From Gottschalkia acidurici 9a (GTDB lineage: Bacteria; Bacillota; Clostridia; Tissierellales; Gottschalkiaceae): a stretch of 64,000 bases of DNA. Shown here in pieces: positions 1,990-24,687 of this stretch. Under the pieces are notes generated by a model that did not search any database, was not told where the DNA came from, and worked only from the letters and a program-made list of their open reading frames with translations. Location of the stretch: NCBI RefSeq assembly GCF_000299355.1, contig NC_018664.1:865115-929114 (forward strand), read 5' to 3'. The translations under genes and the position numbers were made by a program. The stretch's first letter is position 1. Every line of letters starts with the position of its first letter.

Positions 1990-4403
1990 TGAAAGTCTAT
2001 CTTGACTTTGCCTCAAAGTATTTAAAGGTTCATAAGAAGAAAACACGATTAACTGTTATTAGTGTTGCAATATCTGTTGCTCTTATTACAGGAATATTCT
2101 CTATGTTGGATATTTTCTTACGATTTGAAAGGATACAGGTAATAAATGATGTAGGGAATTATCATCTTTTGATTAAAGATGCGTCTGAAGAAGATATATC
2201 TATAATATCAAGTCGCATTGATGTACAAAATTCAGGAACATGGTTAACTTTTGAAGATGGAAGTATAGAAAATGTAAAGTGTAAGTTAGGAGCAATTGAC
2301 GAAAAATTTGCTACAAATATGAATTTAAAGGTTGCTGAGGGAAGATATCCTACAAATAAAAATGAAATTATGTTAGAAAAATGGGCAACAGAAGTATTTA
2401 ATAAGAATTTAAAAGTAAATGATAGTGTTAAGATTGCCTTTTCAGATAATATTGAAAGAGAATTTGTGATAAGTGGTATATATAATGACTTAGGAAATAT
2501 GAAAGCATCAGGAATACCAGGAGTAATTATGTCTACTAGTGGTGCTAAAGATATAATGGTAAAAAAACAAAGCCTTTATCTTATAGAGTTTAAAAATGGA
2601 GCTAATATAATTAAAGCAGAAAACGATATAAAGAAATTATTAGATATACCAGATGATAATATAGGACGTAACGAACGTTTACTTGCTATTATGGGGCAAA
2701 GTACAAATAACACAGTTATGGGATTATATATTACTGGATCGGTATTATTTTTTATTGTTCTCATTGCTGGTGTTATGATGATATATAATACATTTAATAT
2801 TTCTATTATGGAAAGAGTAAGACAGTTTGGACTCTTAAGATGTATTGGTGCATCAAAGTCACAAATTAAAAAATTAGTTAGAAGAGAAGCTTTTATTATA
2901 GTTATTAAAGCAATACCTATTGGATTGCTTATAGGTATGTTTTTGACTTTTGTTTGTTCAGCTATATTGAAGCTTTTTAATAAAAATCTTTTTTCTGACA
3001 TTTCACTATTTACCTTTAGCACTATAGGAATAGTTTCAGGAATTTTAATTGGTTTTTTTACTGTATTCATAGCGTCACTTTTACCAGCTAAAAAAGCATC
3101 ACGGATTTCTCCTGTAAATGCAGTAACAGGAAGTGAAGACATAAAAGTTTTTAAGAAAAAGAAACTAGGTACATTGACTAAAATACTTCATGCCGAAATT
3201 GCAATGGGAATAAATAATGCTATTATGAAAAAGAAAACTCTTTTTTTAATGTCATGTTCTATAGCTATAAGTATTGTCATGTTTTTAGGATTTCAGGTAT
3301 TTATTGACTTTCTTAATATAAGTCTTAAAACTACTAAACCATATACACCAGACATTACACTTGTATCAGAAGAAGGTATAAATAATGATTTGTATAAAAA
3401 GTTAGAAAAAATTGATGGTGTTAAAAGGGTTTATGGAAGAATGTTTGATTATGTAAATGCTACTTTCGACTCAAATAGACTAACTGAATCATATAAAAAG
3501 GACATGGGAAATATTACAATTAAGGATGATAGTTTATTTATTCCTCCTGAAAAATCTTGGCTCATATCTTATGATAGAAATCAATTAAACTGGGCGAAAG
3601 AAGATTTAGTTGATGGAGAACTGTCGGAAGATAAACTTAATAAAGAGAATGGTATAATAGCGGTTGCTATGAATTTAAGAAATAATATTTCTATACAAAC
3701 AGCTGACCTGAAACTTGGAGATAAAATTTATCTTCAAACTTCTAATGGAGTAAAAGAAATGAAAGTAATGGGTATAATACGCTCTGTTCCATTTAGTAGT
3801 TCTCAACTAAATTTAGCTACATTCATAACTACAGAAAAGCAGTTTACAGAACTAACTGGTAAATCACAGTTTAAAACTATTGATATTCAACTTGACAAAA
3901 AATATCAAGATCAAACAGTTAATAAAATAAAGGATGCCACAAATGATTCAATTACTTTCTTGGATTCACGTCAACAAAATGCTGAAATGGATCAAACTTT
4001 TTTTACTATGGCAGTTTTTATATATGGGTTCGTTATAGTAATTGCTTTGATAAGTATTTTAAATATAATAAATACTATGAATACAAGTGTTGAGTCTAAG
4101 GTTAGATACTTAGGGGTAATGAGGGCTATAGGCATGTCAGATACTCAATTGAATAAGATGGTTTTAATTGAAGCTACCACATATAGTTTTATAGGATGCA
4201 TCTCAGGCTTTATAATTGGAACCTTGCTACAAAGAACATTAATTTCAAACTTCCTTTCACATTACCATGTAGTTTGGAAACTTCCTTTCATTCAAATTGC
4301 ATTGATATTAATAATAACTATAGCTATGACACTAGTTTCTATTTTAGGGCCATTGAAACGTATTAAAAATAAAAGAATTTCAGAAATAATAGGATCAATA
4401 TAA
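1989..4403 (+). CDS. ABC transporter permease with two FtsX domains
   Basis: Membrane partner of the ATPase at 1309-1989. The 804-residue protein has the duplicated FtsX/MacB_PCD layout: an N-terminal membrane helix (about 20-42), an extracellular domain, three helices (about 245-370), then a second repeat with a helix near 415, another extracellular domain and three terminal helices (about 680-800). The cytoplasmic motif after each first helix (RQFGLLRCIGASKSQIKK; RYLGVMRAIGMSDTQLNK) is typical of FtsX domains. Such permeases often work by mechanotransmission on peptides or lipids, not by simple substrate passage. It is distantly related to the permeases at 44404 and 49374. Confidence 0.9.
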   Translation: MKVYLDFASKYLKVHKKKTRLTVISVAISVALITGIFSMLDIFLRFERIQVINDVGNYHLLIKDASEEDISIISSRIDVQNSGTWLTFEDGSIENVKCKLGAIDEKFATNMNLKVAEGRYPTNKNEIMLEKWATEVFNKNLKVNDSVKIAFSDNIEREFVISGIYNDLGNMKASGIPGVIMSTSGAKDIMVKKQSLYLIEFKNGANIIKAENDIKKLLDIPDDNIGRNERLLAIMGQSTNNTVMGLYITGSVLFFIVLIAGVMMIYNTFNISIMERVRQFGLLRCIGASKSQIKKLVRREAFIIVIKAIPIGLLIGMFLTFVCSAILKLFNKNLFSDISLFTFSTIGIVSGILIGFFTVFIASLLPAKKASRISPVNAVTGSEDIKVFKKKKLGTLTKILHAEIAMGINNAIMKKKTLFLMSCSIAISIVMFLGFQVFIDFLNISLKTTKPYTPDITLVSEEGINNDLYKKLEKIDGVKRVYGRMFDYVNATFDSNRLTESYKKDMGNITIKDDSLFIPPEKSWLISYDRNQLNWAKEDLVDGELSEDKLNKENGIIAVAMNLRNNISIQTADLKLGDKIYLQTSNGVKEMKVMGIIRSVPFSSSQLNLATFITTEKQFTELTGKSQFKTIDIQLDKKYQDQTVNKIKDATNDSITFLDSRQQNAEMDQTFFTMAVFIYGFVIVIALISILNIINTMNTSVESKVRYLGVMRAIGMSDTQLNKMVLIEATTYSFIGCISGFIIGTLLQRTLISNFLSHYHVVWKLPFIQIALILIITIAMTLVSILGPLKRIKNKRISEIIGSI

Positions 4404-5255
4404 TATTTTAGGGTTAAGTAGAAAATAAACTAATGATAGGAAAAGTAAAGTTTATACTTCTAGATACATAACGTTACTCTAAGAGGAAAGTAAATATATT
4501 GATTTATTAAAATTTGTTTGCAAAACACTTAGTGGAGATTTAACAATATAACATTTAAAAAATAATATCCAGAACCTATTTATATTGTATATGGGGTTTG
4601 GATATTATTTTTTTGAGAATAAGAGAAAAATTTTAATTGTGAAGATCATAGATTTAAGCATTTATTTAACTTTTTAAGAAGTAATTTTAATATTATCATA
4701 TCTTGCAGTTTTTAATCTTAATTTTATTTAATATTTCAAACTAAATCTTTAAATATCCAGTTTATCTAATCTATCTCTCTTATACATATTTGAAACTTCT
4801 AAAATTCACTTCTAAAAATATTTATACTATCTGGTAAAGGTTTTACAATGGTTAACATACGTAAAAGTAAAAATTAGATAATCTTTAGGCGTATATCTTT
4901 TAATGTTTTTAAATAATTGTATTAGCTATAATTCTATAATAGTATCAAACGTTAATTATATAAATTATGTACTAATTATAAATATAAAATAACGAATATT
5001 ACCAAAATATGATAACTTATTATATATATATATATAAATCATTTTAGTATAGTAATATGAAAACAAGAAGTGATAAAAATTGTATATACATTTAACTTAT
5101 ATAACTACTAACTAAATATTTACACTTTTGAAAATATAATTGAGTAATATATAAACTAAGATGTATAAAAAAATATTTATATAAGGTATAACGATATTAA
5201 AAATAAATTAGTTATTAATATATGGTGTAATTATAAAACTAGACATGATATTTTA
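4404..5255. other. AT-rich intergenic region
   Basis: About 850 bases without a supportable gene. It holds the terminator at 4561-4613 and then long A/T-rich sequence with alternating TA runs near 5023-5037. No ribosome binding site with a reading frame was found until the peptide gene at 5384. Confidence 0.6.
4561..4613 (+). terminator. Intrinsic terminator
   Basis: Stem AATAATATCC...AACC pairs with GG.TTTGGATATTATT and is followed by TTTTTT. It lies about 160 bases after the permease stop and would end the kinase-ABC operon. Confidence 0.75.
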
Positions 5256-5284
5256 TTGGACAAGTATAACATTATTTATACTAT
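5256..5284 (+). promoter_or_regulatory. Putative sigma-A promoter of the RiPP locus
   Basis: TTGGAC (5256-5261) and TACTAT (5279-5284) are separated by 17 bases, about 100 bases upstream of the precursor ATG. It is the best promoter-like pair before the peptide gene. Confidence 0.5.
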
Positions 5285-5383
5285 AGAAAATATGTTCACA
5301 CCTGTATATTAACCATATAGATAGAAAGAAATATATTTATGCTATATAAGCTATTATAAAAAATATGAAGGGAGTTAGATAAA

Positions 5384-5512
5384 ATGAAAGATAATAACTT
5401 AATTAAACCTATCAATGAGGAGATAACTGAGGATAAAAATGATTGGATACTATGTGGTAATGACGATGTGTGTGATGACTGTATAGGAATCTGTGATCCA
5501 ACATTTCATTAA
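5384..5512 (+). CDS. Small Cys-containing RiPP precursor peptide
   Basis: A 42-residue peptide with a good ribosome binding site (GAAGGGAG, about eight bases before ATG). The first 21 residues are a charged leader ending KNDW. The C-terminal half is acidic and holds four cysteines at 24, 30, 33 and 37 in the pattern C-x5-C-x2-C-x3-C, with the tail CDPTFH. It directly precedes four radical SAM/SPASM maturases, so it is very likely their substrate, with the cysteines as sites of thioether (sactipeptide or ranthipeptide) links. It resembles in size and setting the clostridial Cys-rich peptides made with CcpM/SCIFF-type maturases, but I cannot assign it to a named family. Its product and activity are unknown. 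Confidence 0.75.
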   Translation: MKDNNLIKPINEEITEDKNDWILCGNDDVCDDCIGICDPTFH

Positions 5513-5522
5513 AAACTAAAGA

Positions 5523-5567
5523 TACACATTTATTAAAATTAATTAATTAACTAATAAATAATGTGTT
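5523..5567 (+). terminator. Hairpin after the precursor gene
   Basis: ACACAT and TTATTA pair with TAATAA and ATGTGT around an ATTAATTAATT core, followed by TTTTA. Placed ten bases after the precursor stop, it could be a leaky terminator that makes precursor mRNA more abundant than maturase mRNA. Confidence 0.5.
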
Positions 5568-5621
5568 TTAGGTGATACATACAAAACACAAGTAAAAACA
5601 TAAATATATTTCTTCTAATAA

Positions 5622-5657
5622 AATAGTAAGTATAGACTATAGTCTATACTTACTATT
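5622..5657. repeat. Perfect 36-bp palindrome
   Basis: The 36 bases centred on 5639/5640 equal their own reverse complement (half-site AATAGTAAGTATAGACTA, then T/A at the centre). As RNA it folds into a stem of about 16 bp; it has no T tract, so it looks like an mRNA processing or stability element, or a dimeric protein site, and not a plain terminator. It ends ten bases before the Shine-Dalgarno of the first maturase. Confidence 0.9.
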
Positions 5658-5667
5658 AATAATTATA

Positions 5668-5706
5668 AGGAGGAAGTCAGAATAAATCTGACAAAATTAA
5701 ATTATG
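5668..5706 (+). promoter_or_regulatory. Shine-Dalgarno with hairpin in the spacer
   Basis: A perfect AGGAGG (5668-5673) lies 30 bases from the ATG at 5704. An in-frame stop (TAA 5698-5700) and the lack of ATG, GTG or TTG nearer to it rule out another start. Between them GTCAGA (5676-5681) and TCTGAC (5687-5692) form a six-bp stem with loop ATAAA. Folding it would reduce the effective spacing to about 13 bases. Confidence 0.7.
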
Positions 5707-7095
5707 CATCCTATAAATACCAACTCATATGAAATACTTAATTATAATAGCAAAAAATTTATTTTCATTGGAAACTATAAAACTTTATTCGAATACACAG
5801 ATTTACTTAATGACATTTTAAAACTTCTATCTAATCATAATGATGATGAAATAGTTAATAAGTTAGAAGGAAAGTATTCTAGTAAGCTTGTAAGAGAACA
5901 AGTTTCTATTATAAAGGAATGGATATTAAAGATTAATTCTCATAATGAAAATCAATATAATTTAAATAATAACATTGAAAGAGATTATTGGCACAAAGAA
6001 AAAGTGCTTAAATCATTATGGTTAAATATATCCCATGATTGTAACTTGAGATGTATATACTGTTATGGAGATGGTGGAAATTATGGAAAAAGAACAGAAC
6101 TTATGACTGTCGAAAAGGCTAAAGAAATAATTGATTATTGGTTTAAGTATTTAAATAAAGAGTCCAAAGAAGTAAATGTTGTTTTTTTTGGAGGAGAACC
6201 TTTAATGAACAAAGATGTTCTATTTTTTGCTGTAGACTATATAAATAATTTAATTGGCCATAACAAAAATATCAAATACATGTTGACGACTAATGCTACT
6301 ATTATGGATAGTAAACTTTTGGACTTGTTTACTAAAAATAAATTTAGTATTACTCTTAGTATTGATGGTGAGAAAGAAATACAAGATAAAAATAGACCAT
6401 ATTGTTCTGGTGAAGGAACTTTTAATAAAGTTATAGAAACTATAGGTTTGTTGAAAAAAAGTTATAATAAATTAACCGCAAGATTAACTTTAACACATGA
6501 TAATGTTCCAAGATTAAAACAATCTATAGAAGATTTATGGAACTTAGGTATTACAAATGTTAACTTTGAAATAGTTTCTTCTAAAGACAAAAGTCTTAAA
6601 TTAACAGAAGAAGATATCAAAATATTAAAACCACAAATACAGGATTTGGCAAAAATAACCTATCGTAATATTATTGATAATAATAATAAATATATTTTGA
6701 CCTTTATAAAATACGGAAAAATATTACATAATTATTTGGATAATAGCTGTACTTTCTATTCTAAAAATAGTCTAATGGTAGATCCTGACGGCGAAATTTT
6801 CAAATGTCATAGATTGATTGAACAAGAAGAATTTATGGTTGGAAATATATCGAATGAACTAGACTGGGGAAAGTATAATAAAAATAAAAACACAAATTCA
6901 AAATGTGATGATTGTTGGATAAATAAATTATGCTTTCAATGTCCGCAGATAAACTATACATTTAATAACAATATTTATGACCCATATGAATTATCATGTG
7001 AGCTTACAAAAATAATTGTTGAAGAAAGTCTAAAATTATATTGTAGTATATATGAAAATTATCCTAAGCTATTAAGTCAAATTTATAAATGCTAG
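5704..7095 (+). CDS. Radical SAM/SPASM peptide maturase 1
   Basis: Predicted iron-sulfur enzyme that modifies the precursor peptide. Residues 1-90 are probably a peptide-binding (RRE/PqqD-like) region. The radical SAM cluster motif CNLRCIYC puts Cys at 113, 117 and 120, followed by GGEPLMN. From residue 349 a SPASM region holds many further cysteines (DPDGEIFKCHR, CDDCWINKLCFQC) for two auxiliary clusters. The hallmark SHDCNLRC.YC..DGG is shared with the clostridial Cys-rich-peptide and SCIFF maturases. The 463 residues are normal for the family. Closest relatives in the window are the maturases at 8895 and 10325. Its last codons form part of a long hairpin (7070-7117), and its start uses the structured ribosome binding site. 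Confidence 0.88.
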   Translation: MHPINTNSYEILNYNSKKFIFIGNYKTLFEYTDLLNDILKLLSNHNDDEIVNKLEGKYSSKLVREQVSIIKEWILKINSHNENQYNLNNNIERDYWHKEKVLKSLWLNISHDCNLRCIYCYGDGGNYGKRTELMTVEKAKEIIDYWFKYLNKESKEVNVVFFGGEPLMNKDVLFFAVDYINNLIGHNKNIKYMLTTNATIMDSKLLDLFTKNKFSITLSIDGEKEIQDKNRPYCSGEGTFNKVIETIGLLKKSYNKLTARLTLTHDNVPRLKQSIEDLWNLGITNVNFEIVSSKDKSLKLTEEDIKILKPQIQDLAKITYRNIIDNNNKYILTFIKYGKILHNYLDNSCTFYSKNSLMVDPDGEIFKCHRLIEQEEFMVGNISNELDWGKYNKNKNTNSKCDDCWINKLCFQCPQINYTFNNNIYDPYELSCELTKIIVEESLKLYCSIYENYPKLLSQIYKC

Positions 7096-7117
7096 TATTT
7101 ATAAATTTGACTTAATA
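7070..7117 (+). repeat. Perfect 21-bp stem-loop across the stop codon of maturase 1
   Basis: Bases 7070-7090 and 7097-7117 are exact reverse complements with a six-base loop GCTAGT that contains part of the TAG stop (7093-7095). There is no T tract after it, so it is more likely a 3' stability or processing element than a terminator. Confidence 0.9.
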
Positions 7118-7540
7118 GTAAGGCCTTAAAGAAAGAGAGAAAGAAATAAATATTTTTTTATTAGCTAAGAAAGGCATTCAAATATAAAAAGATATAAGAA
7201 AAACTTTTAGTAAAATTAACGTAAGTGTCTACTTTTATTATTTATGTAAAATCTACTGTAAAACATTTCTCACAACTTCTTTTTCTCACTTATTAATATC
7301 TCTGTTACAAAAATAATTACGTTTTAGATTATATTATTAAGAAATATATGGAACTCATAGTTAGTATAACCGTATTCTTTATATCGTTATTGTTGTGACA
7401 TATTTACTTTAATAGAAGGGCATATAAGTTTAAATAAAAGTTTAACAATCAAAAAGTGCACTTTTAAATAAGATACAGTAAAAAGTTTAAACCAATACAA
7501 TAAGAATAGATATATTAAAATTTCTTAGTTAAAGAAAGTT
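7118..7540. other. Gap between maturases 1 and 2
   Basis: About 420 bases with no supportable gene; I looked for a second Cys-rich peptide on both strands and did not find one. A clear AGGAGG before the next gene closes the gap. Confidence 0.55.
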
Positions 7541-7557
7541 AGGAGGAATAAGAAAAA

Positions 7558-8877
7558 ATGTTTCATACTATAGATATAAATAAAAGGAAATACTTATTTT
7601 TACCTAATTCCCTTTTTTTATTTGATTTTGATAGTGAAATAATGCAAATTGCAAATGATATAGGAAAAATAGATGGATTTAATAATAGAATTGATACTAA
7701 TAATAAGAAAGTTATTAAAGATTATTTAGAAAAAGATAAAAAGGCGGAACAATATAACAAAGAATTTATTAATAAATTTAACAGTAGCAAAATTAGAATA
7801 ACTGGGTGTGAAATTAATGTATTTTATGGATGTAATCTTGCGTGTAAATATTGCTTTGCATGTGATGGAGGACACGGAAAACAATATACTATGACAAAAG
7901 AGATTGCTAGGAAAACAATAGATTATATTTTAGATAACTCTGAAGAATCCCCAAAAATAAAAGTTACAATAATAGGAGGAGAGCCCCTATTAAATATGTC
8001 AGCGTTTAAGGAGATAATTGAATATGGTAGTATAGAAGCTAAAAAAAGGAACAAAAAAATATATTTTGCTACAACTACAAATGGAACATTGTTAGATGCT
8101 AATAACGTTAATATATTTGAAAAACACAATATCCCTTATATGGTTAGCTTAGACAGTCACATAAAGGAAACTAACGATTATCTAAGACCAGGTAAAAATG
8201 GAGAAAGTTCCTACGATGATATTATGAGTAATTGGCCACTTATAACTAAGACAAAAAAAAGCAGTGTTCACGTTACAGTAACTCCACATAATAAAAATAT
8301 ATTTGAAATAGCACAAAACTTATTTGACCAAGGTGTGTATCATATACACTTTTTTGAAGTTAAAACTGATAATGAAGATCTACAATTTACAGTAGATGAT
8401 ATAGAATACCTAAAAAAAGAATATGAAAAATTGTCTGATTTAATAATACAAAAAATAACAGAAGGTAAGAATATTAGCTGTTATCCATTACTAAATTATT
8501 TAGATAAACTTCACTATAAGAAACCTGTATTCCTAACATGCGGTACATTCAATAATAGAGTTTCATTTGCTCCAGATGGAAATATTTATCCATGTGATAT
8601 GCTTATGTGGGACAAGTATAAAATTGGTAATATAAATGAAGGAATTTATAAGGATAGAATTATAGAAATAAAGGAGCTCTTAAATAATGAAGATAACTGT
8701 GAAGAATGTTGGGCTAGATACTTGTGTGGTGGTGAATGTTTAGCAGATAAGCTTTGGGAAAATAAAGAACAGAAAGCTTTAAGATGTGATCTAAAAAGAC
8801 ATGTTCTATCTTTAAAATTGTATATTTATGATTATATTGTTAAAAACTTTAAAGATTTTGATTTTAATAAATACTAG
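7558..8877 (+). CDS. Radical SAM/SPASM peptide maturase 2
   Basis: Second predicted peptide maturase, 439 residues, with AGGAGG upstream of ATG. Radical SAM cysteines are at 92, 96 and 99 (GCNLACKYCFACDGG), followed by GGEPLLN. The C-terminal SPASM region has CGTFNNRVSFAPDGNIYPC, then CEECWARYLCGGEC and CDLKRH. It is the most divergent of the four: the short N-terminal region starts with a peptide-binding-like strand pattern (KYLFLPNSLFLFDFDSE), and it lacks the SHDCNLRC form. It may act on a different residue or step. Follows a 460-base gap but is tightly linked to the next gene (18 bases). Confidence 0.87.
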   Translation: MFHTIDINKRKYLFLPNSLFLFDFDSEIMQIANDIGKIDGFNNRIDTNNKKVIKDYLEKDKKAEQYNKEFINKFNSSKIRITGCEINVFYGCNLACKYCFACDGGHGKQYTMTKEIARKTIDYILDNSEESPKIKVTIIGGEPLLNMSAFKEIIEYGSIEAKKRNKKIYFATTTNGTLLDANNVNIFEKHNIPYMVSLDSHIKETNDYLRPGKNGESSYDDIMSNWPLITKTKKSSVHVTVTPHNKNIFEIAQNLFDQGVYHIHFFEVKTDNEDLQFTVDDIEYLKKEYEKLSDLIIQKITEGKNISCYPLLNYLDKLHYKKPVFLTCGTFNNRVSFAPDGNIYPCDMLMWDKYKIGNINEGIYKDRIIEIKELLNNEDNCEECWARYLCGGECLADKLWENKEQKALRCDLKRHVLSLKLYIYDYIVKNFKDFDFNKY

Positions 8878-8894
8878 TACTATAGGAGGAACTA

Positions 8895-10319
8895 TTGGAT
8901 ATGGAGAAAGCTATAGAAAGTCCTTTTCTACCATTAATAGTAGAAGATAAATTTTTTATATATGATGGAGGTAGCGCTACTTTATCAGAAGTGAATAGAA
9001 TAATATATGATATTTTGAATCTAAATAAAATGTATAACTTATATGATGACGATGATTGCATTGACATAATAAGGAGTTTGAAAAAAGACTTTTCATCTAA
9101 AGAGATTAATGAAGCTATACAAACAATAAAAGATTATAATAAAGATGGTTTTTTAAAATATAAAGGTAAGGTATATGAATTATTTAATGAAAAATACGAG
9201 TGTGATGAAAGAGATTCATTTACAGGATGTTTGTGGATTAATATTTCACATGATTGTAATTTAAGGTGTAATTATTGCTTTGGTAATGGGGGTGATTATG
9301 GACATAAAAGGATGCTAATGACCAGAGATACTGCTAAAAAGTGTATTGACTACTGGTTTAGCAATATAAATAAAGAACAAAAATTTTTTGAGGTTGCTTT
9401 CTTTGGAGGAGAGCCACTAATGAATCAAGATACTATGTTTTTTACAGTTGACTATATAAATAGTTTACTACAAAGCATAAATGCGAAAGCAAGATATAAT
9501 ATTACTACAAATGGAACGATTTTGAATGATGATATTATTAAATTATTTTGTGATAATAACTTTAAAATAAGTATAAGTATAGATGGAATTGAGAAAATGC
9601 ATAATAAGAATCGTCCATATGCTTCTGGAAAAGGAAGCTTTAATGATATAGTTAATAATGTTAAAAAATTACAACCACACATTAAAAATATATCATCTCA
9701 AATTACTTTAACTAAGAGCGATATTCCTTTCCTGAAACAGTCAGTTCAAAAGCTTTGGGATATAGGAATAAATCTAGTATATTCAAATCTAGTTTTTAGT
9801 AAAGATGAACTTTATGAATATGAGGATTATGAAACACTAGACTCACAAGTAAGAGAACTATCAGAGATAACCTATAACAACATAATAGAAGGCAGAGAAC
9901 ATACGTATAATGGTCTTGTTAGGCTAGTAGGTAATATACATAAAAAAAACTTCTCTACTAACTGTTTTTTCTGGCATAATGGAGCTTTTATATTTTCTCC
10001 AGAGGGTATAGCCCATAAGTGTTATAGATTTATTGGGAATGAAGAGTATAGTATTGGAAATATAGAAGATAAAGACCTTGAATTGCTTAAACATAGATTT
10101 AAAAAAGAGAAGATAGAAAAATGCTTAAACTGTTGGGCTCAACTTTACTGTGGAGATGGATGTGCATACGAAAACTATATATATGGTAATAATATAAATA
10201 CTCCATCGGATCAATGGTGTACGAAAACTAAAATATTACTTAAAGAAAGCTTAACTCTTTATGCTAAACTAATGTCAAATAATCCTGAGAAGGCAAAAGA
10301 ATTTTTTAAGTGGAGATGA
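8895..10319 (+). CDS. Radical SAM/SPASM peptide maturase 3
   Basis: Third predicted maturase, about 474 residues. Radical SAM cysteines at 121, 125 and 128 (CNLRCNYCFGNGGDYG), then GGEPLMN; SPASM region with FSPEGIAHKCYRF and CLNCWAQLYCGDGC. The N-terminal 110 residues follow the peptide-binding pattern FFIYDGGSATLSEV. AGGAGG (8884-8889) precedes a TTG at 8895 by five bases and an ATG at 8901 by eleven; either may be used. The body closely parallels maturase 1 (SISIDG...KNRPY.SG.G.FN), showing gene duplication. Only five bases separate it from maturase 4. Confidence 0.88.
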   Translation: MDMEKAIESPFLPLIVEDKFFIYDGGSATLSEVNRIIYDILNLNKMYNLYDDDDCIDIIRSLKKDFSSKEINEAIQTIKDYNKDGFLKYKGKVYELFNEKYECDERDSFTGCLWINISHDCNLRCNYCFGNGGDYGHKRMLMTRDTAKKCIDYWFSNINKEQKFFEVAFFGGEPLMNQDTMFFTVDYINSLLQSINAKARYNITTNGTILNDDIIKLFCDNNFKISISIDGIEKMHNKNRPYASGKGSFNDIVNNVKKLQPHIKNISSQITLTKSDIPFLKQSVQKLWDIGINLVYSNLVFSKDELYEYEDYETLDSQVRELSEITYNNIIEGREHTYNGLVRLVGNIHKKNFSTNCFFWHNGAFIFSPEGIAHKCYRFIGNEEYSIGNIEDKDLELLKHRFKKEKIEKCLNCWAQLYCGDGCAYENYIYGNNINTPSDQWCTKTKILLKESLTLYAKLMSNNPEKAKEFFKWR

Positions 10320-10324
10320 TAAAC

Positions 10325-11680
10325 ATGCTTAACAAAAGATATTTTTCATATGACTTCGACAATAAATATTTTCTATATGATTCAGATACAGGTTTAGTAT
10401 TTACTTCAACTGAAACTATGAATCGAGTTGTTGAACTAATAAATTTAAAGTATGGTAAACAAAATATTATAGATTCATTATATAGGCTTGATAAAAATGA
10501 AGTAGAAAATAGTATAAACTTTCTCAAGCAGCTTTCTAAACAATATAACCTAAGAGAAGGACAAAATAAAGACCTTGTTAGAAAAAATAAAAATATAGAA
10601 GAATCTTTATGGTTGGATGGACAAGTTTTGAGTAAGATGTGGCTGTCAATATCATACTCATGTAACATGAAATGCACCTACTGCTTTGCTGATAGTGGAA
10701 CCTATGGAAATGAATCTATGATGACTATTGAAACTGCAAAGAAATGTATAGATTATTTTTTTAAATATGTAAATAAAAAAGCTAATAGGTTTAATGTTCA
10801 ATATTTTGGTGGTGAACCTTTACTCAATAAAGAGGTATTTATTTTTGCTACAGAATATATTAATCAAAAATCAAGTGAATTAGGCTTGAAACCCAACTAT
10901 ATAATAACTACAAACGGAACAATCATGGACAATGATATTTTAGATGTGATAATAAGTAATAGAATGTATGTACACATAAGTATTGACGGTTCAAAAGATA
11001 TTCATAATTTAAATCGTAAGTTCTCTAGTGGAGAAGAAACTTTTGGTATAGTTGCAAATAATATAAATATGATTAAAGAACGAGGCTACAGAAATATTGG
11101 AGCGAGGGTAACATTAACTAAGCCTGGAATTAAATCGCTAAAAGAAGATGTAAAGTTTCTTTGGGACTTTGGTTTTAATCATGTATTCATAGATATTGTT
11201 AAGACAGATATAAAAGAGTTAGCAATCGACAAGGACTCAATATGTTTACTTAAACAAGAATTAGAAGAAATTATGATAATGATGAAAGAAGAACTATTAA
11301 ATGGCAATATGAAGTGTATTAGAAATATAACTGATATGGAGAGTATTATTAAAAATAGAACTATAAAAGCAGAGTGTACATACTTTAATCCCTTTACAAT
11401 AAAGTTTACTCCTAAAGGGGAAATATATAAGTGTGAATTTGCCTTAAATGAAAAAGAAAATTATGTAGGAAGTATATCTAAAGGAATTGAATGGGATAAG
11501 TTTAAAAAGACATTTACTCCAGAAGAAAGATGCCTCAACTGTTGGGCAAAAAGGTTGTGTGGAGGCGGATGTCACTTGTATTCAAATGATGATGTATCAT
11601 GCGAATATTCAAAAATTATTATGGAAAATGCTCTAAAATACTACTCTTTTTTTGAAAGTAATGAGGAGCGCGCATTATAA
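10325..11680 (+). CDS. Radical SAM/SPASM peptide maturase 4
   Basis: Fourth predicted maturase, 451 residues. I start at ATG 10325, preceded by GGAGATGA; an upstream in-frame ATG at 10310 overlaps maturase 3 and has no ribosome binding site. Radical SAM cysteines at 113, 117 and 120 (CNMKCTYCFADSG), GGEPLLN, and a SPASM region (FTPKGEIYKCEF, CLNCWAKRLCGGGC, CEYSK). The N-terminus again has the RRE-like pattern (YFLYDSDTGLVFTS). Same operon as maturases 2 and 3. With four paralogues and four precursor cysteines, a division of labour is possible but unproven. Confidence 0.88.
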   Translation: MLNKRYFSYDFDNKYFLYDSDTGLVFTSTETMNRVVELINLKYGKQNIIDSLYRLDKNEVENSINFLKQLSKQYNLREGQNKDLVRKNKNIEESLWLDGQVLSKMWLSISYSCNMKCTYCFADSGTYGNESMMTIETAKKCIDYFFKYVNKKANRFNVQYFGGEPLLNKEVFIFATEYINQKSSELGLKPNYIITTNGTIMDNDILDVIISNRMYVHISIDGSKDIHNLNRKFSSGEETFGIVANNINMIKERGYRNIGARVTLTKPGIKSLKEDVKFLWDFGFNHVFIDIVKTDIKELAIDKDSICLLKQELEEIMIMMKEELLNGNMKCIRNITDMESIIKNRTIKAECTYFNPFTIKFTPKGEIYKCEFALNEKENYVGSISKGIEWDKFKKTFTPEERCLNCWAKRLCGGGCHLYSNDDVSCEYSKIIMENALKYYSFFESNEERAL

Positions 11681-11830
11681 AATTAAGTTGGGACTAATAA
11701 GCAACATAGTAACAATAGAGAGGTTAAACAAAGTTAGTTTTTTTATAATAAAATTATATATATTTATATGAATTAACTAACTGAAGTACAAAAATAGCTA
11801 ATAAGCACATAAAATTAGGGGGTTAAGAAT
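11681..11830 (+). other. Intergenic spacer with inverted repeat
   Basis: AGTTAGTT near 11733 pairs with AATTAACTAACT near 11771, forming a possible weak hairpin between maturase 4 and the fifth radical SAM gene. Not a clear terminator. Confidence 0.35.
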
Positions 11831-12767
11831 ATGCAACACTATTTATTAGCACTTATATATACGTATAAATGTACTGCGTCATGTGATATCTGTTGTTTTT
11901 CATGTTCTCCTGAAAGAGAGGAAAAGATGAGTTTATCTGATGCAAAAAGATATGTAAGTGAAGCTAAGAAATGTGGAGTAAAAATGGTAGGAATAGCTGG
12001 TGGAGAACCACTTATATTTTTTGATGAAATCATCGAACTTGCAAAATATACAAAAAGTCTTGGAATGAATATTACACTTACAACAAATTGTTTTTGGGCA
12101 GAATCTTATAATATCTCACTTGAAATTTTAGAAACTTTACGTAATGCGGGTATAAATCATATCAAAATAAGTTCAGATGAATTTCATGGCAAATATATTC
12201 CATATGAAAATATAAAAAATGTATTAAATGCTGCAAAAAATATAAATTTAAAAGTAGTAGTAGGGTGTACTGTCACGAAAAATAGTGATCGTCTAAGAGG
12301 TTTATTAAGTCATATTGAGGATGAATCAACAGGTACAATTTTACTAGAGCAAACATGCTATCCTTTAGGTAGAGCAAAGGAATACTTTAAAGAGGATCAA
12401 TTTATTTATAAAAAAAATATAGATAGATTCTGTAAAGACGGTGGAATGATAACAATAACACCGGATGGAAGTGTATATCCTTGTGGCTCTATGTTTTCAA
12501 TTATATCTAATAGACTAGTTGGATCTATGTGTGAACATTCTTATGAGTTAATCGCTAAAAAAAGTACATGAAAATAAGCATAATAAATTTATAAGTAAAT
12601 ATGGGATAAAGCCATACTATGAATATATAATAGAAAATAATTTACCAATAAATATCAAAAAGGAGTTTGTAGACTCATGTCATGCATGCTACGAACTTTT
12701 TAATAATGACCAAAATATACAATATCTTGATGACATAGTAGATAGACTTGAAAAGGTATATGGATAA
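11831..12767 (+). pseudogene. Fifth radical SAM protein, frameshifted at an A7 run
   Basis: A shorter radical SAM enzyme without the full SPASM set. Cysteines 14, 18 and 21 form the cluster motif (CTASCDIC), followed by IAGGEPL. The first frame stops at 12571. The protein clearly continues in another frame to a TAA at 12765-12767, reading VHENKHNKFISKYG and later SCHACYELFNN with paired cysteines. The switch falls in a run of seven A (12557-12563); six A would give one protein of about 311 residues. It may be a true mutation, a sequencing error or slippage. AGGGGG upstream supports the ATG at 11831. Probably a RiPP-modifying enzyme of the same cluster; exact family not recognised. Confidence 0.8.
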
Positions 12768-12835
12768 AGTCGAGGTACAATTATTATATTGAGAAATTTT
12801 TTAGTAAGTTGTTATAGAAAGATAGGTGATACAAA

Positions 12836-15577
12836 GTGGAGTTTAAGTTAATATCAAAAACTTACTTAAAAGGCTTAAAAACATATGGACATGAGTATAA
12901 GCATAAAAGTGGGTTAACTTTGATTTTTGTAAAAGATAAGAACTGTAACCAAAAGACAAGTATAAATATATCAATATATACTCCAGCAATAGATAATAGA
13001 GGAGCAGCTCATATAATAGAACATTGTATAGCTAGTCAGATGAATAGTATGAAATTTTTAAAACATTTTGCTAAAACCTATCAAGATAAAACAAGTTATG
13101 AATATGTTCTAAATGAAAATGATATAGAGGAAATTGATAGCATAATTAATGGAATATTTGTGCCTTCTTTTAAAAAAAATAAAAATATTTTCTTAAAAGA
13201 AGGCTGGCGGCTTGAAGAATACAACAATAAGTTGTCTATAAAAGGAGTAGTTTTCGATGAGATTAGAGACGCGTTTGCATCGCCTATTTATAATATTATA
13301 AACTATATACCATTCACTTTATATAACGGCTCTGTGTATGGAAATGTATCTGGGGGATTGATAGAGGACATTCTAGATTTATCTTATGATGATCTTATAG
13401 AGTACTATAATAGGTACTATACGTTACGTAACTGCTGTATATTTATACATGGCAATCATTGTATCAATAATATAATAAAAATCTTATCTCCGATCATTAA
13501 TAAGCTTTCGATAGGTAATGAAGTTGATTTTATAGAGGACATAAAGTTAAAAGAATATGAGAAAATATCTAATTATAGTGGTGCATATCTATCAACAGTT
13601 GAAGATATAGATGGTTATAACTTCAAAAGTGTTAACTTTGCAATTGACAAGCCCAAAAATCAATTTGAATATAATATATATTATCTAATATGTAGAGACA
13701 TGCTGGAACATAAAAATGAAATATTTATAAAAGACATAAAGAAATATAAAATTGGAAAAAAAGTTAGTGCAATTTTTAAAAACTCATTATATAAGCCCTT
13801 CTTTTCCATAATATTATATTACTGCAGAAGTAATACAAATGATATTTTCTTAAAAATTTGCAAAGAGATTTTAAGTGATGTGATTAGTAATATTAATATA
13901 GATCAAATACCTAACTTTGTACTAGGTGATATATTTGATAATTATTATAATATTGATGGACTAAAACTAGGTACTTATGTTATGGAGGCTTTTTTTTCAA
14001 ATATTCCTTGCTTTTCTTATATAGTAGAGAGCAAGGACGATAAAGAAAAAATTAAGTTCATAAATAAGATTAAAGAGGAACTAATTGCTTCTCCTAATTA
14101 TTCAATTATAACATTATATCCATATGTAAAACCTGAAAAGATAAAAAGTAATGATTTGATAAGGAAAGCTAGAAAAAAGAGTATTGTAAATGAATACAAT
14201 CCAATAAGAGCTAGTACACATTTGATAACAGATAGCTTCATAAATATTAATAAAAATATCTTCAATGAAGTAAAGAGAAACTTATTATTTGAAAATCCTG
14301 AATTAAAAATACATGATGATATAAAGTATTTCTTTTATAGCAAAAATGATTCAAAAATAAATACTCATATATACTTTGATATAACAGAATTTACATATGA
14401 GGAATTATGCTTAACAAGTATTTTAAATATATATTTTAAATCTTACTTAGACAGAATTAATTGTAAAGATAAAATTAGAATAGGTATTTATCCAATATTT
14501 GATGAAAAAAATAATTCGGTTTCATCAAAATTAGTAGTACACTTATCTACTAATGAAGTTGATTTTAAAGATTTATTGATTAAATTGAAAGAATTATTAA
14601 CATTAAGTAACTTATACAAGGATTCAGATATAATAAAAGAAAAATTATGTGACTTAAAAGTAAATATTGATATAAATCTAGTAAACAATATAAGAAGTCT
14701 ATTACCTATAAGGTTATTGTCATACTTTTCAAATTGTAATTTTCATAAAGATGCTACCAATGGAATTGGATTTTATAATTTTCTGACTACAATGCTAAAT
14801 AATAATGATAATTATGATTTGGTAATTAAAAAGATATTTGATATTTCTAAACATATCTTTACAGTAGATAAATTGTTTGTCAGTATTTATGCTAAAAATA
14901 AAGATTATGTTTTTAATAATATTAGTGATTTTTTATTACAACTAAAAAAAGGTAGATTTAAAAGAACTAATGCACTATACACTAATAAGAAAAATGAAGG
15001 ATTTATTTCTACTATAAAAACAAACTATATAGCCCTTGGGTTTAATTATAGCGAACTTGGATTTAAATATTCTTCAAAATACAAGATACTGTGTAATATA
15101 ATAACTCATAATTATCTATTTTCAAGTTTAAGAAATAAATATAATGTTTATGCATCAGAATTATCTATAATCGAAAATAATTTAATCTTTTTCTCAATGA
15201 AGGATCCAAATTTTGCTACTACGTTTGAAGTATTCAGAAATACCGGTAAATATATAACTACTAATATAAATACAATACTTAAAGACTTTAACTTATACAA
15301 GTATAATTACATAATAAAGGCTAAAGATCCCATAATAACATGTGAAAATGATTTGGCAACTATTAAATTACTATATCCAAATCTATTCAAAGATAGATCG
15401 AAAATATTATCAGAGTTAGAGGACAATATAACAAAAGAAGATATTTTTATTTTTTGCGATATGGTTGAAAAAGCAGTAACTGAAAACTATTATTGTATAT
15501 TCGGAAATGAAGAAATTATAAAAGAGAATGAAGAATTATTTTCTTCTATAAATTATTTACCTATTTATCAAATATAA
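12836..15577 (+). CDS. M16 family zinc metallopeptidase (PreP-like)
   Basis: A 913-residue insulinase-superfamily peptidase of the one-chain M16C (presequence protease) type, starting at GTG 12836. The inverted zinc motif HIIEH (His59, Glu62, His63) is intact, and the distal zinc ligand region FLKEGWRLEE follows at the expected distance, then VVFDEIRDAFASP, a family signature. Such enzymes cut short unfolded peptides inside a closed chamber. Placed between the maturases and the exporter, it is the best candidate to remove the precursor leader or to degrade unmodified peptide. It is cytoplasmic: no signal peptide is seen. The C-terminal half diverges from housekeeping relatives, which suggests a dedicated role (inference). 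Confidence 0.85.
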   Translation: MEFKLISKTYLKGLKTYGHEYKHKSGLTLIFVKDKNCNQKTSINISIYTPAIDNRGAAHIIEHCIASQMNSMKFLKHFAKTYQDKTSYEYVLNENDIEEIDSIINGIFVPSFKKNKNIFLKEGWRLEEYNNKLSIKGVVFDEIRDAFASPIYNIINYIPFTLYNGSVYGNVSGGLIEDILDLSYDDLIEYYNRYYTLRNCCIFIHGNHCINNIIKILSPIINKLSIGNEVDFIEDIKLKEYEKISNYSGAYLSTVEDIDGYNFKSVNFAIDKPKNQFEYNIYYLICRDMLEHKNEIFIKDIKKYKIGKKVSAIFKNSLYKPFFSIILYYCRSNTNDIFLKICKEILSDVISNINIDQIPNFVLGDIFDNYYNIDGLKLGTYVMEAFFSNIPCFSYIVESKDDKEKIKFINKIKEELIASPNYSIITLYPYVKPEKIKSNDLIRKARKKSIVNEYNPIRASTHLITDSFININKNIFNEVKRNLLFENPELKIHDDIKYFFYSKNDSKINTHIYFDITEFTYEELCLTSILNIYFKSYLDRINCKDKIRIGIYPIFDEKNNSVSSKLVVHLSTNEVDFKDLLIKLKELLTLSNLYKDSDIIKEKLCDLKVNIDINLVNNIRSLLPIRLLSYFSNCNFHKDATNGIGFYNFLTTMLNNNDNYDLVIKKIFDISKHIFTVDKLFVSIYAKNKDYVFNNISDFLLQLKKGRFKRTNALYTNKKNEGFISTIKTNYIALGFNYSELGFKYSSKYKILCNIITHNYLFSSLRNKYNVYASELSIIENNLIFFSMKDPNFATTFEVFRNTGKYITTNINTILKDFNLYKYNYIIKAKDPIITCENDLATIKLLYPNLFKDRSKILSELEDNITKEDIFIFCDMVEKAVTENYYCIFGNEEIIKENEELFSSINYLPIYQI

Positions 15578-15734
15578 TAAAAGATTATTGTATTTACAAT
15601 CTTCAGACTAAAAATACTTAAATATTAGCAATAATTATTTAGATATAATATTATAATAAAGTAACCTTAGTGACAAGTATATAGTTCATAAGTTGAAAAG
15701 TATACCAAAAGTACTGCGATGATTTGTTACTTTA

Positions 15735-15764
15735 ATCTTAAGTAAATTACTTAAGATAATATTT
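15735..15764 (+). terminator. Intrinsic terminator after the M16 peptidase
   Basis: ATCTTAAGT pairs with ACTTAAGAT around AAATT, followed by AATATTTTTA. The surrounding gap (15578-15950) shows no gene. Confidence 0.65.
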
Positions 15765-15950
15765 TTATAGAGACTTAGTAGAAGTATAATATAGACCTAA
15801 AGAATATATTATTAATAAACAGTTGAAAAAAGATATATATATTATTTAGATAAAAATGGAGTTAAAGTTAGATAACTAAATATAGTTAATAAAAATATAA
15901 AGTTACTGAAAGCTAATGATTAAGATAATATTAGCATTGGAGAGGATAGA

Positions 15951-17690
15951 TTGAATAATATAAAAAAGTTTCTAAAAATAATATTTAAGGGAAATAAGCT
16001 AATTGGATGCTTATCATTTGGAATTATGCTAATTATATGTATTTTAGATTTGTTAACACCACAGTTAACTAAAATGATATTAGATGACGCTATAAAACTT
16101 GGTGAAAAGAGTTTATTAATGAACCTAATAATTATATACGCTGTAATAAGTATTATATCGGCTTTATCTGATATAGTTTTAGGGTACATAAATTCCATAA
16201 TGCAAAAAAGAGCTTTAGTTAATTTAAAAATAAAATTATTAAGGCGTATAGGCAATTTATCAGGAGATTATTACACAAATGTAAAAACAGGAAATATATT
16301 AAGCATAATAGAAAATGACATATCTACTTTAAAAAACTTTGGAGCAGATATACTATTTTCTTTAATAATAGAGAGTATTACAGCTTTAATAGCCTTAATA
16401 TTCTTGATAAGAATGGAATTTGACTTATTACTCATGATAATAGTACTTCAAATATTAATAGGATTTAGTCAATCAAAATTTGCTGAAGTTATATTAAACA
16501 AAACTAGAGAGGTTAGAAAAGATGAGGGAAATATATCTGGTATAGTTCAAGAGTACATATCTAATATAATAAATATTGTGTTGTCAAAATCCAACTTTAT
16601 GTTTTTTCAAAATTATATAAATAAAGAGAAGGAACTTATAAAAAAATCTATTAACTTAAATATTACTGTTTCGAGTAATATAGCTATATCGAGTATCTTA
16701 AATAGATTGATAACGATATGTATTTATGGATACGGTGGTTTAAAGGTAATAAAAGGACAGATGACAATAGGTGAGCTTATTGCATTTCAACAATATGCAA
16801 ACAGGCTCATAGGTCCATGTATGAAAATAATAAGGTCTAATGCCCAAATTCAACAATCTATTGTATCTATGAATCGCATATTTAGTATAATAGAAGAACC
16901 TATAACTATAAATCAAAATAATAAAGGAAAAAAGTATGTAGACAGCTTTAATGGGGATATAAGTTTTAATGAGGTTAGTTTTTTTTATGAAAAGAATACT
17001 AAAGTTATAGATAATATAAATATAAGGTTTGAAAAAGGAAAAGTAACTGCATTAGTTGGTTCAAGTGGTTGTGGTAAGTCTACTATAGTTAAATTGCTAT
17101 TTAGGTTATGGGATGTCGATGATGGAAACATATTTATAGATAATATATCATTAAAGAATTATAATCTTAAGTATATAAGAAAAAATATATCTATAGTTAC
17201 CCAAGACCTATTTCTATTTGATGATACCGTACTTAATAATTTAACATTAGGTAATAAAAATATATGTAAAGAAAGAGTAATAGACATATGTAAAAGAGTT
17301 GGTATTTATAACCTCATACTTAACCTGTCAGACGGATTTAACACTAGAGTTGGGGAGAATGGTATAAAATTATCTGGTGGTCAAAAACAAAGAATATCAA
17401 TTGCAAGGACACTATTAAGTAATCCTAAAATTGTAGTGTTTGACGAGGCTACCTCTGCACTAGACAATATATCTCAAAAACATATATTAGAGAATATAAG
17501 AGAATATTTAATGGATAAAACAACTATTATTATAGCTCACAGACTATCAACGATAAAAGATGCTGATAATATATATGTTCTTGATAAAGGTAAAGTTATA
17601 GAGGAAGGTAATCATGAAGAGCTTATTGAAAATGAGGGATATTACTATAACCTTTTAAATGAGCAATGTTTGGAAACTAGCCTAGGATAA
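15951..17690 (+). CDS. ABC exporter, fused membrane and ATPase domains
   Basis: A 579-residue half-transporter that would dimerise. Six membrane helices occupy about residues 15-300, and the ATPase domain has Walker A (GSSGCGKST), signature (LSGGQKQR), Walker B (KIVVFDEATSALD) and H-loop (IIIAHRLS). It has no N-terminal C39 peptidase domain, so leader removal must be done elsewhere, which agrees with the M16 peptidase upstream. Starts at TTG 15951 after GGAGAGGATAGA. Likely exporter of the mature peptide or a self-protection pump. Confidence 0.9.
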   Translation: MNNIKKFLKIIFKGNKLIGCLSFGIMLIICILDLLTPQLTKMILDDAIKLGEKSLLMNLIIIYAVISIISALSDIVLGYINSIMQKRALVNLKIKLLRRIGNLSGDYYTNVKTGNILSIIENDISTLKNFGADILFSLIIESITALIALIFLIRMEFDLLLMIIVLQILIGFSQSKFAEVILNKTREVRKDEGNISGIVQEYISNIINIVLSKSNFMFFQNYINKEKELIKKSINLNITVSSNIAISSILNRLITICIYGYGGLKVIKGQMTIGELIAFQQYANRLIGPCMKIIRSNAQIQQSIVSMNRIFSIIEEPITINQNNKGKKYVDSFNGDISFNEVSFFYEKNTKVIDNINIRFEKGKVTALVGSSGCGKSTIVKLLFRLWDVDDGNIFIDNISLKNYNLKYIRKNISIVTQDLFLFDDTVLNNLTLGNKNICKERVIDICKRVGIYNLILNLSDGFNTRVGENGIKLSGGQKQRISIARTLLSNPKIVVFDEATSALDNISQKHILENIREYLMDKTTIIIAHRLSTIKDADNIYVLDKGKVIEEGNHEELIENEGYYYNLLNEQCLETSLG

Positions 17691-17928: not shown

Positions 17929-18657
17929 TTATAGAAAATCAAGTCCTCTAATTCCACGTACAGAAGCCATGCATGTTTCACCATTGATCATATGTATTAT
18001 TCTATTAGTTTTATCTATTTCTTTAATATTATCTTTATTAACTATAAATGATTGGTGACATCTATAAAATCTTTTATCTAACTTTTCTTCTATACTTTTC
18101 ATTTTACTATAAAACTCCACTTGTCTATCTATCGCATGTAGCCTTAATTTATGTACAGTATCTGACGTTTCAAAAAATAAAATTTTATTATATTCTATAG
18201 TAATAACTTTAGAGCCAATATTTAAGATAAATATGTTCTGGATAGTATTAGACAAGGATGAATATCTCTTATGAGCATTCAATATACAGTCACGCACCCT
18301 ATAACAAACTTCAGTGAAATTATCTTTGATTATATAATCCATAGCCTCAGCTTTATACTTAAAAGTTAAATAACTCATTTCGGCATGTGTTGTTACGAAT
18401 ATAATAAAGCCCCTAGGATCATACTCTCTTATTCGTTCGGACAACTGAATACCATTTATAGAAGACTTTAAGTCAACATCTAAAAAATATAGTCCGTTTA
18501 CTTCATTATCCTCTAAATACTTTAAAACCTCATAAGGATCTTCAGTTGCTAAGGTTAGTTCCATGTCTAGGTCTTCAATAATTATTGCGTTTTCTATAAT
18601 TTTTTTTAGCTTATCCATATAATTTCTATTATCCTCACATATAAAAACTTTAAGCAT
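17929..18657 (-). CDS. LytTR response regulator (AgrA-like)
   Basis: DNA-binding regulator of the agr type. The receiver domain has the acidic pair (CEDN) and phospho-acceptor Asp (YFLDVDLKSS), and the C-terminal LytTR domain includes ILFFETSDTVHKL and FYRCHQSFIVN. I start at the ATG at 18657, nine residues into the longest frame, because AGGAGTGA sits about ten bases upstream. It follows the sensor kinase by 16 bases. By analogy with AgrA it should activate agrBD and target operons on binding the peptide signal; the RiPP locus next to it is the obvious target. Confidence 0.9.
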   Translation of the reverse strand: MLKVFICEDNRNYMDKLKKIIENAIIIEDLDMELTLATEDPYEVLKYLEDNEVNGLYFLDVDLKSSINGIQLSERIREYDPRGFIIFVTTHAEMSYLTFKYKAEAMDYIIKDNFTEVCYRVRDCILNAHKRYSSLSNTIQNIFILNIGSKVITIEYNKILFFETSDTVHKLRLHAIDRQVEFYSKMKSIEEKLDKRFYRCHQSFIVNKDNIKEIDKTNRIIHMINGETCMASVRGIRGLDFL

Positions 18658-18673
18658 ACTTATGAAGTCACTC

Positions 18674-19980
18674 CTATTCATTTTGAATTTCTAAAATCTG
18701 ATTAAACTCATTGTTTTCTAAAAAGGTGTCTAAACAAATATTGTTATATTGAGATAATATTTTTTTAGGTTACTTAATCCTACACCTCTATTTAAACCTT
18801 TAGTAGAAAAACCATTTTCATAAATTTTAAAAATTTCAATAGTATCATGTGGACATGAATTAATTACTATAATAGTCACAGAATTTTTCCTACTAACTAG
18901 TCCAAACTTTATAGATTTACTAGAAGTTTTTTTAGCCGCTTCTATAGCGTTGTCTAAAAGTATACCTATTACTCTACACAAGTCCACTATATTCATATTA
19001 ATATTTTGTATAGGTTCTAATATATCTATAAATATATTAATATTATCTTTATGAGCTCTTATAATTTTTGAAGATACTATACCTTTTAACTCCGGTATCT
19101 TTATATTTTGAATCAAACCTAGCTTAAAATCTCTGCTATCTATATCTTTACTTATAGATAGTATGTTATTATCAAAATATTCTTTCAAATTCTCCATATC
19201 ATTTTGATTTATATACTCAGCCATAGATATTAATATATTTATGTAATCATGTTTAAAACTTTTCATTTCATTATATAAAGACTCTATATTTTGTGTATAT
19301 TCTTTCAAATTCTCAAATTCAGTTTTTCTATGTATAAATTCAGATTCTTTTTTTACATTTTGTGAAAATGCATAATAAATTAAAATTAACAAAACAAAAT
19401 ATAGTAGAAACATAAATATATTAATATTTACTTGATTCTGGGACAAGAGGTTACTATTAAAAAATAAAACTGAATTAATGTAAAAAATTAAAAAAGTTAG
19501 CAACAAACTAGATAAAACAAAAATACTGAATTTATTTTTAAAGTTTAAATTAATCAACATTAGTTTTTGTTTGAAAAATTTATTAATTAAAAAGCATATA
19601 GAATATGATATTAGATAGTGAAAACAATAAAATAAGGTATAGTAAAAAAAGTTGGCTTTAATATCTAAAACACTATCTAATGGTAGTATACTTAACGCTA
19701 AGGTACAAGATAAGAAATCTACAAATAAAAACAGTATGAAACTTAATGTTACAGACACTAGTGTGGGAATTAATTGCTTTGTTTTAATATATATCATTAC
19801 AATTAAAAATATTATTAATACAGGTATTCCTAAGTCCTCATACTTGAAAATTGGAATTAAGATAATAGATGATATTATTGATAAAAATATATAATAATTT
19901 CTAGATAGTATAGTAATATTAAGTTTATAAACTATAAAAATAATTAAATATATGCTTAATAAAGAAAATATATAATACAT
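18674..19980 (-). pseudogene. AgrC-like sensor kinase, frameshifted near the C-terminus
   Basis: Peptide-sensing histidine kinase: about six membrane helices in the first 200 residues, the AgrC-type H-box (FKHDYINILISM), an N-box (GILLDNAIEAAKK) and a G-box (GVGLSNLKK). The plain frame stops at 18730, soon after the G-box. A different frame continues from the same point as ILSQYNNICLDTF and ends at 18674, exactly the expected AgrC tail. The switch lies in a seven-T run on the plus strand (18760-18766); eight would restore the protein. The start is best placed at the ATG at 19980, with GGTGGTG upstream; a longer GTG form begins at 20025. The catalytic core is otherwise intact. Confidence 0.82.
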
Positions 19981-20256
19981 ATGACACCACCAATATAAAA
20001 AATATACATAAATAAATCTTATCACATTATGGTAATAAAGTCACTAAAATGTAAAGGTGATAACAAAAATGTAAAGTATAACCTGTATCGAGCATAAATT
20101 ATAAAGACTATTAATCAACGGTTAAAAGATAATTTCTATATTGAATATAAGTTAAATTCTTTAATCACTATTGACTTATATAAATATTATAGTAAGACAT
20201 ATACTCATCGACTTTGTTCTTTGAATTAATCTAAAACTTGAAAGCTGTTAATTAAT

Positions 20257-20406
20257 TTATATATCGTAATTATTGATATATTTACAGTAAAATTCATTTA
20301 ATAAGATATATGCAACTATTTTATCAGTAGATACATCCTTACTAGTGAATAAATTTAGTTTTTCAGAAAATGTCTCATCAGTAGGTCTACTAGTTTTCTT
20401 TACCAT
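20257..20406 (-). CDS. Possible 49-residue ORF in the agr intergenic region
   Basis: An open frame on the minus strand with protein-like composition (starts MVKKTSRPTDETFSEKLNLF, ends INNYDI). No strong ribosome binding site. It could be a small gene or the remnant of a larger one. The rest of 19981-20898 shows nothing recognisable; it should hold the agr promoters. Confidence 0.3.
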   Translation of the reverse strand: MVKKTSRPTDETFSEKLNLFTSKDVSTDKIVAYILLNEFYCKYINNYDI

Positions 20407-24660: not shown

Positions 24661-24687
24661 TTATGTTTAAGGAGGTCACGGCTGTAT

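Follow-up and report, generated by a model that had tools for sequence, protein, structure and literature searches.

Can four radical SAM/SPASM maturases serve one small peptide, and what would each of them contribute? The question is raised by a locus of Gottschalkia acidurici 9a at positions 5256–17690 of the window, the whole 64,000-nucleotide stretch analyzed (NC_018664.1, positions 865,115 to 929,114). The original prediction had described a RiPP locus, and its layout was confirmed: a precursor gene, four radical SAM/SPASM genes, a fifth radical SAM gene, an M16 peptidase gene, and an ABC exporter gene, all on the plus strand.

Organization of the locus and the precursor peptide

The precursor ORF (5384–5512) encodes a 42-residue peptide, MKDNNLIKPINEEITEDKNDWILCGNDDVCDDCIGICDPTFH, with the leader motif IKPIN and the core C24-x5-C30-x2-C33-x3-C37, and is directly preceded by a Shine-Dalgarno-like sequence, AAGGGAG. 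The peptide matched zero NCBIfam or Pfam models. It is encoded in a single copy in its own genome, and no second precursor was found in the gaps of the cluster in the window. With this ORF, its ribosome-site-like sequence, and its relatives elsewhere (see below), the predicted small four-Cys precursor is well founded. The approximately 980 bp ahead of it (4404–5383) are very A+T-rich and contain no convincing gene and no Rfam match.

The maturase genes, designated A to D, encode proteins of 463 (A, 5704–7095), 439 (B, 7558–8877), 474 (C, 8895–10319), and 456 aa (D, 10310–11680). Because C and D share 10 bp and the gap between B and C is 17 bp, B-C-D are very likely one transcript. Between the precursor and A lies a perfect 18-bp inverted repeat on the plus strand (5622–5657; MFE -27.3, folding z -6.2), and stable hairpins are likewise present 3′ of two of the related precursors described below, that of the genome G032 and the second one of Pseudobacteroides cellulosolvens. 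The hairpin at 5622–5657 is likely a transcript end or an attenuator that would keep the precursor mRNA in excess, in line with RiPP loci in general, where precursor transcript usually exceeds enzyme transcript. Scans for promoter and terminator consensus sequences gave nothing above shuffles, and no Rfam RNA elements were found in the window.

Related loci in G032 and Pseudobacteroides cellulosolvens

The genome search for related gene sets that the original prediction had proposed yielded two loci. When 249 genomes of the taxonomic order of the window were searched with a profile, a second quartet was identified in G032, with the gene order A-precursor-B-C-D and a single precursor of 41 aa, MKAIKPLNDNFISPIGGLCPLDCGSDDYCGKCEGICKPWCR; no YydG-like gene, M16 gene, or dedicated exporter gene was found beside this quartet. 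The other locus, in P. cellulosolvens (L031, L071), was the sole match when 84,980 species genomes were scanned with C, a scan that requires exact peptide patterns and so reaches close relatives only. It encodes two precursors with identical 49 residues, MEDKIIKPINQANYDHDDAFVSFNIDFCDVPYLCDGDTCADCPSVCKKD (the first ORF has a possible start six codons earlier), followed downstream by counterparts of B, C, and D, an ABC-2-like gene set, a YydG-like gene, an ABC exporter gene, a B12-binding radical SAM gene, and an M16 gene; it has no maturase A.

The precursors were compared by pairwise alignment and reading. All three share an IKP[IL]N leader, a C-x4/5-C-x2-C-x3-C core, and an Asp at position -2 relative to the second core Cys. 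The alignment score of the window and G032 precursors was 69, against a shuffled mean of 25.8, and 0 of 5000 shuffles scored as high; the real score was reached by 12 of 5000 shuffles for the window and P. cellulosolvens precursors and by 8 of 5000 for the G032 and P. cellulosolvens precursors. At the first core Cys, the window (C24-D28) and G032 (C23-D27) peptides have CX3D and the P. cellulosolvens peptide has CX2D.

No further quartet was found in 391 class, 249 order, and 398 phylum genomes or in 58 genomes from the same order as P. cellulosolvens, where the remaining maturase matches peaked at approximately 310 bits with the A2 profile and 233 bits with the B profile. Among plasmids, only remote relatives of B and of the YydG-like protein were found and no cluster, and the B orthologues retrieved nothing from IMG/VR but distantly related radical SAM proteins of 22–38% identity. 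At first look, the maturase profile picked out 57 candidates in the G032 genome and 47 in G019, of the same genus, both far above most relatives; radical SAM proteins may be very numerous in G032.

Phylogeny of the maturases

In a 48-protein tree constructed with IQ-TREE, A of the window paired with A of G032 (support 100/97), and the B (100/100), C (99/91), and D (99/96) proteins of the three loci each formed a group. A, C, and D together formed one clade (100/99), with B outside at a weakly resolved position, and all four types were outside the sampled SCIFF-like group. Sequence identity was 32–38% among A, C, and D and 24–30% between B and these. The earlier description of four paralogous maturases therefore holds only in a wide sense: A, C, and D are the closer paralogues, and B is a separate, older lineage.

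Because each of the A, B, C, and D clades has a support of 99–100, the four types predate the separation of the three loci, and they were kept together with the precursor. This joint retention of orthologous types is our strongest evidence, and it argues that A–D are not redundant copies. The claim that one precursor serves several maturases likewise gained support: the precursor is in single copy in its own genome, the G032 quartet has one, and the three P. cellulosolvens maturases have two identical ones; in neither of the latter loci is each maturase paired with its own different precursor, the arrangement that the original prediction had named as refuting it. Judging from gene content, what is conserved is several maturases per one precursor. 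Another species has the four enzymes together again, grouped with a peptide related to this one, so the locus seems to be a genuine, as yet undescribed route to a peptide natural product, with several enzymes working on a single small substrate. Our preferred reading, to which we give about an even chance, is a dedicated ranthipeptide-like RiPP pathway whose maturases divide labor on one Cys-rich precursor. The ranthipeptide class is defined by a thioether between Cys and a non-alpha carbon.

Family assignment and predicted structure of A–D

All four proteins contain a radical SAM domain (54–64 bits, Pfam), and the top NCBIfam model for each of them was NF047865, the PapB ranthipeptide maturase, with 231.5 (A), 224.3 (B), 222.0 (C), and 199.1 bits (D) against a curated cut-off of 340 bits. 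The next-ranked model, the SCIFF maturase (TIGR03974), gave 173–206 bits against a cut-off of 425 bits. The precursors gave a similar picture: each of the three has one CX3D at most and not the repeated CX3D/E of a PapB-type precursor, and none is of the SCIFF type, with six Cys in forty-five residues. The Clo7bot maturases (TIGR04334) were dropped as an identity for A–D at 65–83 bits against 600. The closest solved structure by sequence was CteB (5wgg/5why; 295 bits with the family profile). A–D thus look like thioether-forming SPASM maturases, yet lie outside the PapB and SCIFF families by the curated tests, and their chemistry is not readable from family, because they are far under the curated cut-offs of PapB, SCIFF, and other RiPP maturase families.

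A–D could accordingly make chemically different modifications (thioethers, C-C or C-O cross-links, desaturation) in place of four thioethers. SPASM enzymes catalyze many reactions (PMC8326336), the B lineage is separate from A, C, and D, and no named maturase family has a cut-off that A–D reach; however, the closest families and the closest structure (PapB, SCIFF, and CteB) are all thioether formers and the core is Cys-rich, and we regard mixed chemistries as unlikely.

Structures were modeled for B and C. The best fold match of C (pLDDT 76) was CteB 5wgg, with a Foldseek E-value of 4.4e-26 and a TM of 0.67–0.71, and its N-terminal 85 residues are predicted to form three strands and three helices (beta-beta-beta-alpha-alpha-alpha) in an RRE-like arrangement. 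The N-terminal domain of B is reduced and predicted with low confidence, and D of G032 is shortened in this domain. The domains may be shared on this account, as in an obligate hetero-complex like TrnC/TrnD, in which one or two maturases carry out the radical chemistry while the rest hold the substrate or supply domains. A purely structural partner, however, need not keep its cluster ligands, whereas CX3CX2C and the seven SPASM Cys (spaced CX2CX5CX2C in A) are invariant in 7/7 aligned maturases and the G032 maturases keep the radical SAM motif. Such a complex is accordingly doubtful, and these motifs together with the RRE-like domain of C are those of SPASM maturases with an RRE, in keeping with the preferred reading of maturases that divide labor on one precursor.

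The fifth radical SAM gene

This gene (11831–12767) is related to YydG/EpeE. Its open frame stops at 12571, and the remainder is in the +1 frame, which runs from 12564, just after a seven-A run (12557–12563), to a stop at 12765–12767. The C-terminal part in the +1 frame carries the conserved CxxC, as in P. cellulosolvens and EpeE; the site may be a sequencing error or a true or programmed frameshift. The truncated frame scored 123.4 bits with the YydG/EpeE model TIGR04078, under its cut-off of 300.

The window protein is 45% identical to the P. cellulosolvens protein across the shared part, and both align with EpeE (PDB 8ai1–8ai6) nearly over the full length, CxxxCxxCCF included. Unlike in EpeE, where Cys223 is the proposed hydrogen donor (PMC8326336), the aligned residue is Gly in the window (Gly219) and in P. 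cellulosolvens (YPCG), the residue aligned to Asp210 is also not Asp, and a Cys-rich peptide and PapB-like maturases are encoded alongside. In the deposited chains, 8ai3 has Ala at Cys223 and 8ai6 has Ala at Asp210. A homologue in a different type of locus (G392) has YPCC and so keeps the CC. Because the hydrogen-donor Cys223 is Gly and Asp210 is also replaced, epimerization by the EpeE mechanism is not supported. The predicted fifth radical SAM gene is present, but it does not add to the thioether maturases: it encodes a relative of YydG/EpeE without Cys223, and is frameshifted as sequenced.

Other YydG-like loci (G392, G047, G480, G431, and G317) had no adjoining PapB-like maturases in the flanks checked and are therefore different systems. 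Two loci of one genus (L067 and L068, in G392 and G431) contain arrays of at least three consecutive YydG-like genes, also without PapB-like maturases.

The M16 peptidase and the ABC exporter

The peptidase gene (12836–15577) encodes a PreP-like M16C protein of 913 aa with the Pfam domains PreP_C and Peptidase_M16_C, HXXEH as HIIEH at 59–63, and the distal Glu in FDEIR at about residue 142; it is the only such protein in its own genome at an E-value of 1e-20. It clusters with the M16 protein of the P. cellulosolvens cluster, apart from 29 M16C proteins of the order (SH-aLRT 100), a grouping that could be attraction, as both branches are long. The exporter gene (15951–17690) encodes a permease-ATPase fusion (ABC_membrane and ABC_tran) in which no N-terminal C39 peptidase domain was found with Pfam. 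Both an M16 peptidase and an exporter devoid of a peptidase domain had been foreseen, and both are present. Neither belongs to the invariant core, since both occur in P. cellulosolvens and are absent beside the G032 quartet.

The P. cellulosolvens M16 gene is split by an ORF-less group II intron (L071:10368–11153, minus strand; RF02004 155 bits, RF00029 55 bits), beyond which the C-terminal coding sequence resumes; production of the peptidase would need splicing of this intron.

PQQ synthesis combines a short peptide, a radical SAM/SPASM enzyme, and an M16 peptidase, and PreP-type M16C enzymes degrade short peptides. By the same logic, the M16 enzyme here could cut the precursor to free a small modified amino acid or cofactor, with the exporter being secondary. 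This is very unlikely, because the exporter is present in both loci having M16, the conserved core of 14 residues with four Cys has the look of a structural product, and M16 is absent beside the G032 quartet. That the neighborhood is due to chance, the maturases serving unrelated peptides and the 42-residue ORF being no substrate, is largely excluded: small ORFs do arise by chance, but in two other genomes a related precursor with the same leader and core adjoins orthologues of these enzymes.

Proposed pathway

The pathway with divided labor builds on gene content, homology, and the conservation of the quartet with the precursor; a small precursor beside radical SAM/SPASM genes, conserved in other genomes, is the hallmark of a radical SAM RiPP cluster. 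From these we infer the thioether chemistry, a division of one enzyme to one site, leader cleavage, and export, as well as any antibiotic or signal role. The conserved IKP[IL]N of the leader would be recognized by the RRE-like domains, as its conservation and the fold suggest. A–D would then cross-link the four-Cys core, Cys to other residues, through thioethers, for which the nearest models (PapB and the SCIFF maturase) and the nearest structure (CteB) argue, and each would probably be responsible for one site or step, given the conserved orthologous types. The YydG-like enzyme, its gene being frameshifted as sequenced, may add a further change in this genome. Finally, the M16C peptidase may remove or trim the leader and the ABC protein may export the product, both steps being suggested by the neighborhood in two of the three loci. 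These two steps and an action of the maturases in sequence, all put forward in the original prediction, are plausible.

Some points count against this pathway. Four enzymes are not needed by the number of links, because PapB alone makes six (PMC9413430); the number of Cys per precursor does not track that of the maturases (4 and 4 in the window, 6 and 4 in G032, and 5 and 3 in P. cellulosolvens); and only three loci are known. A stricter version, an assembly line in which the four maturases install one specific cross-link each in a fixed order on the same core of approximately 14 residues, and an EpeE-fold enzyme without the hydrogen-donor Cys ends an alpha-carbon radical other than by epimerization, is a speculative proposal that we consider rather unlikely.

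Comparison with known systems

PapB of Paenibacillus polymyxa, the freyrasin ranthipeptide maturase, forms Cys-Asp links in CX3D (PMC9413430). The system resembles the present one in its radical SAM/SPASM enzyme and its short Cys/Asp-rich core, CX3D being found in the window and G032, but there one enzyme makes all the links, whereas here four enzymes accompany a core without the six-fold CX3D repeat. The SCIFF system, CteB-CteA, shares a Cys-rich precursor in Clostridia and provides the best structure by sequence and fold, whereas SCIFF precursors, with six Cys in 45 residues, are served by one maturase.

Two maturases per peptide are known from thuricin CD, where TrnC/TrnD form an obligate complex (PMC12093266), and from thuricin Z/huazacin, with ThzC/ThzD (PMC8172795). 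These clusters likewise assign several radical SAM maturases to a pair of peptides or to two identical precursors, but they are Bacillus sactipeptide clusters with two maturases and not a conserved orthologous set of four. The ruminococcin C cluster has two radical SAM/SPASM maturases (RumMC1/RumMC2), with the SPASM spacing of A; unlike here, RumMC2 alone installs all four bridges (PMC8188230), and there are five precursors.

No description of one precursor served by four radical SAM maturases was found in the open-access papers searched. The statement in the original prediction that no described locus is known with this set agrees with these papers, although a prior bioinformatic mention is possible. 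Single radical SAM maturases often suffice for every link of their peptide, as PapB does with six and RumMC2 with four. If four diverged maturases do act on one peptide of 41–42 residues, this would show why a pathway needs several. With one peptide, four enzymes, and two natural replicates, the system is compact enough for tests of order, site choice, and enzyme-enzyme dependence, and the YydG-like enzyme without the hydrogen-donor Cys offers a separate test of how that Cys decides the fate of the alpha-carbon radical.

Neighboring genes

Just 3′ of the exporter gene is an agr-type set (17929–21649) encoding a LytTR regulator, a GHKL kinase, AgrB, and a 57-aa AgrD-like peptide, which, from its position, may control the cluster. 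FtsX-type ABC transporter gene sets are located at 22–4403, 42177–47700, and 49365–52736 of the window, with a sensor kinase or a regulator-kinase pair next to the first and second of them; the set at 22–4403, just upstream of the cluster, could provide self-protection. Further downstream (23515–28175), beta-aspartyl-dipeptidase-like, cyanophycinase-like, and cyanophycin-synthetase-like genes, recognized by reading only, are arranged in a row.
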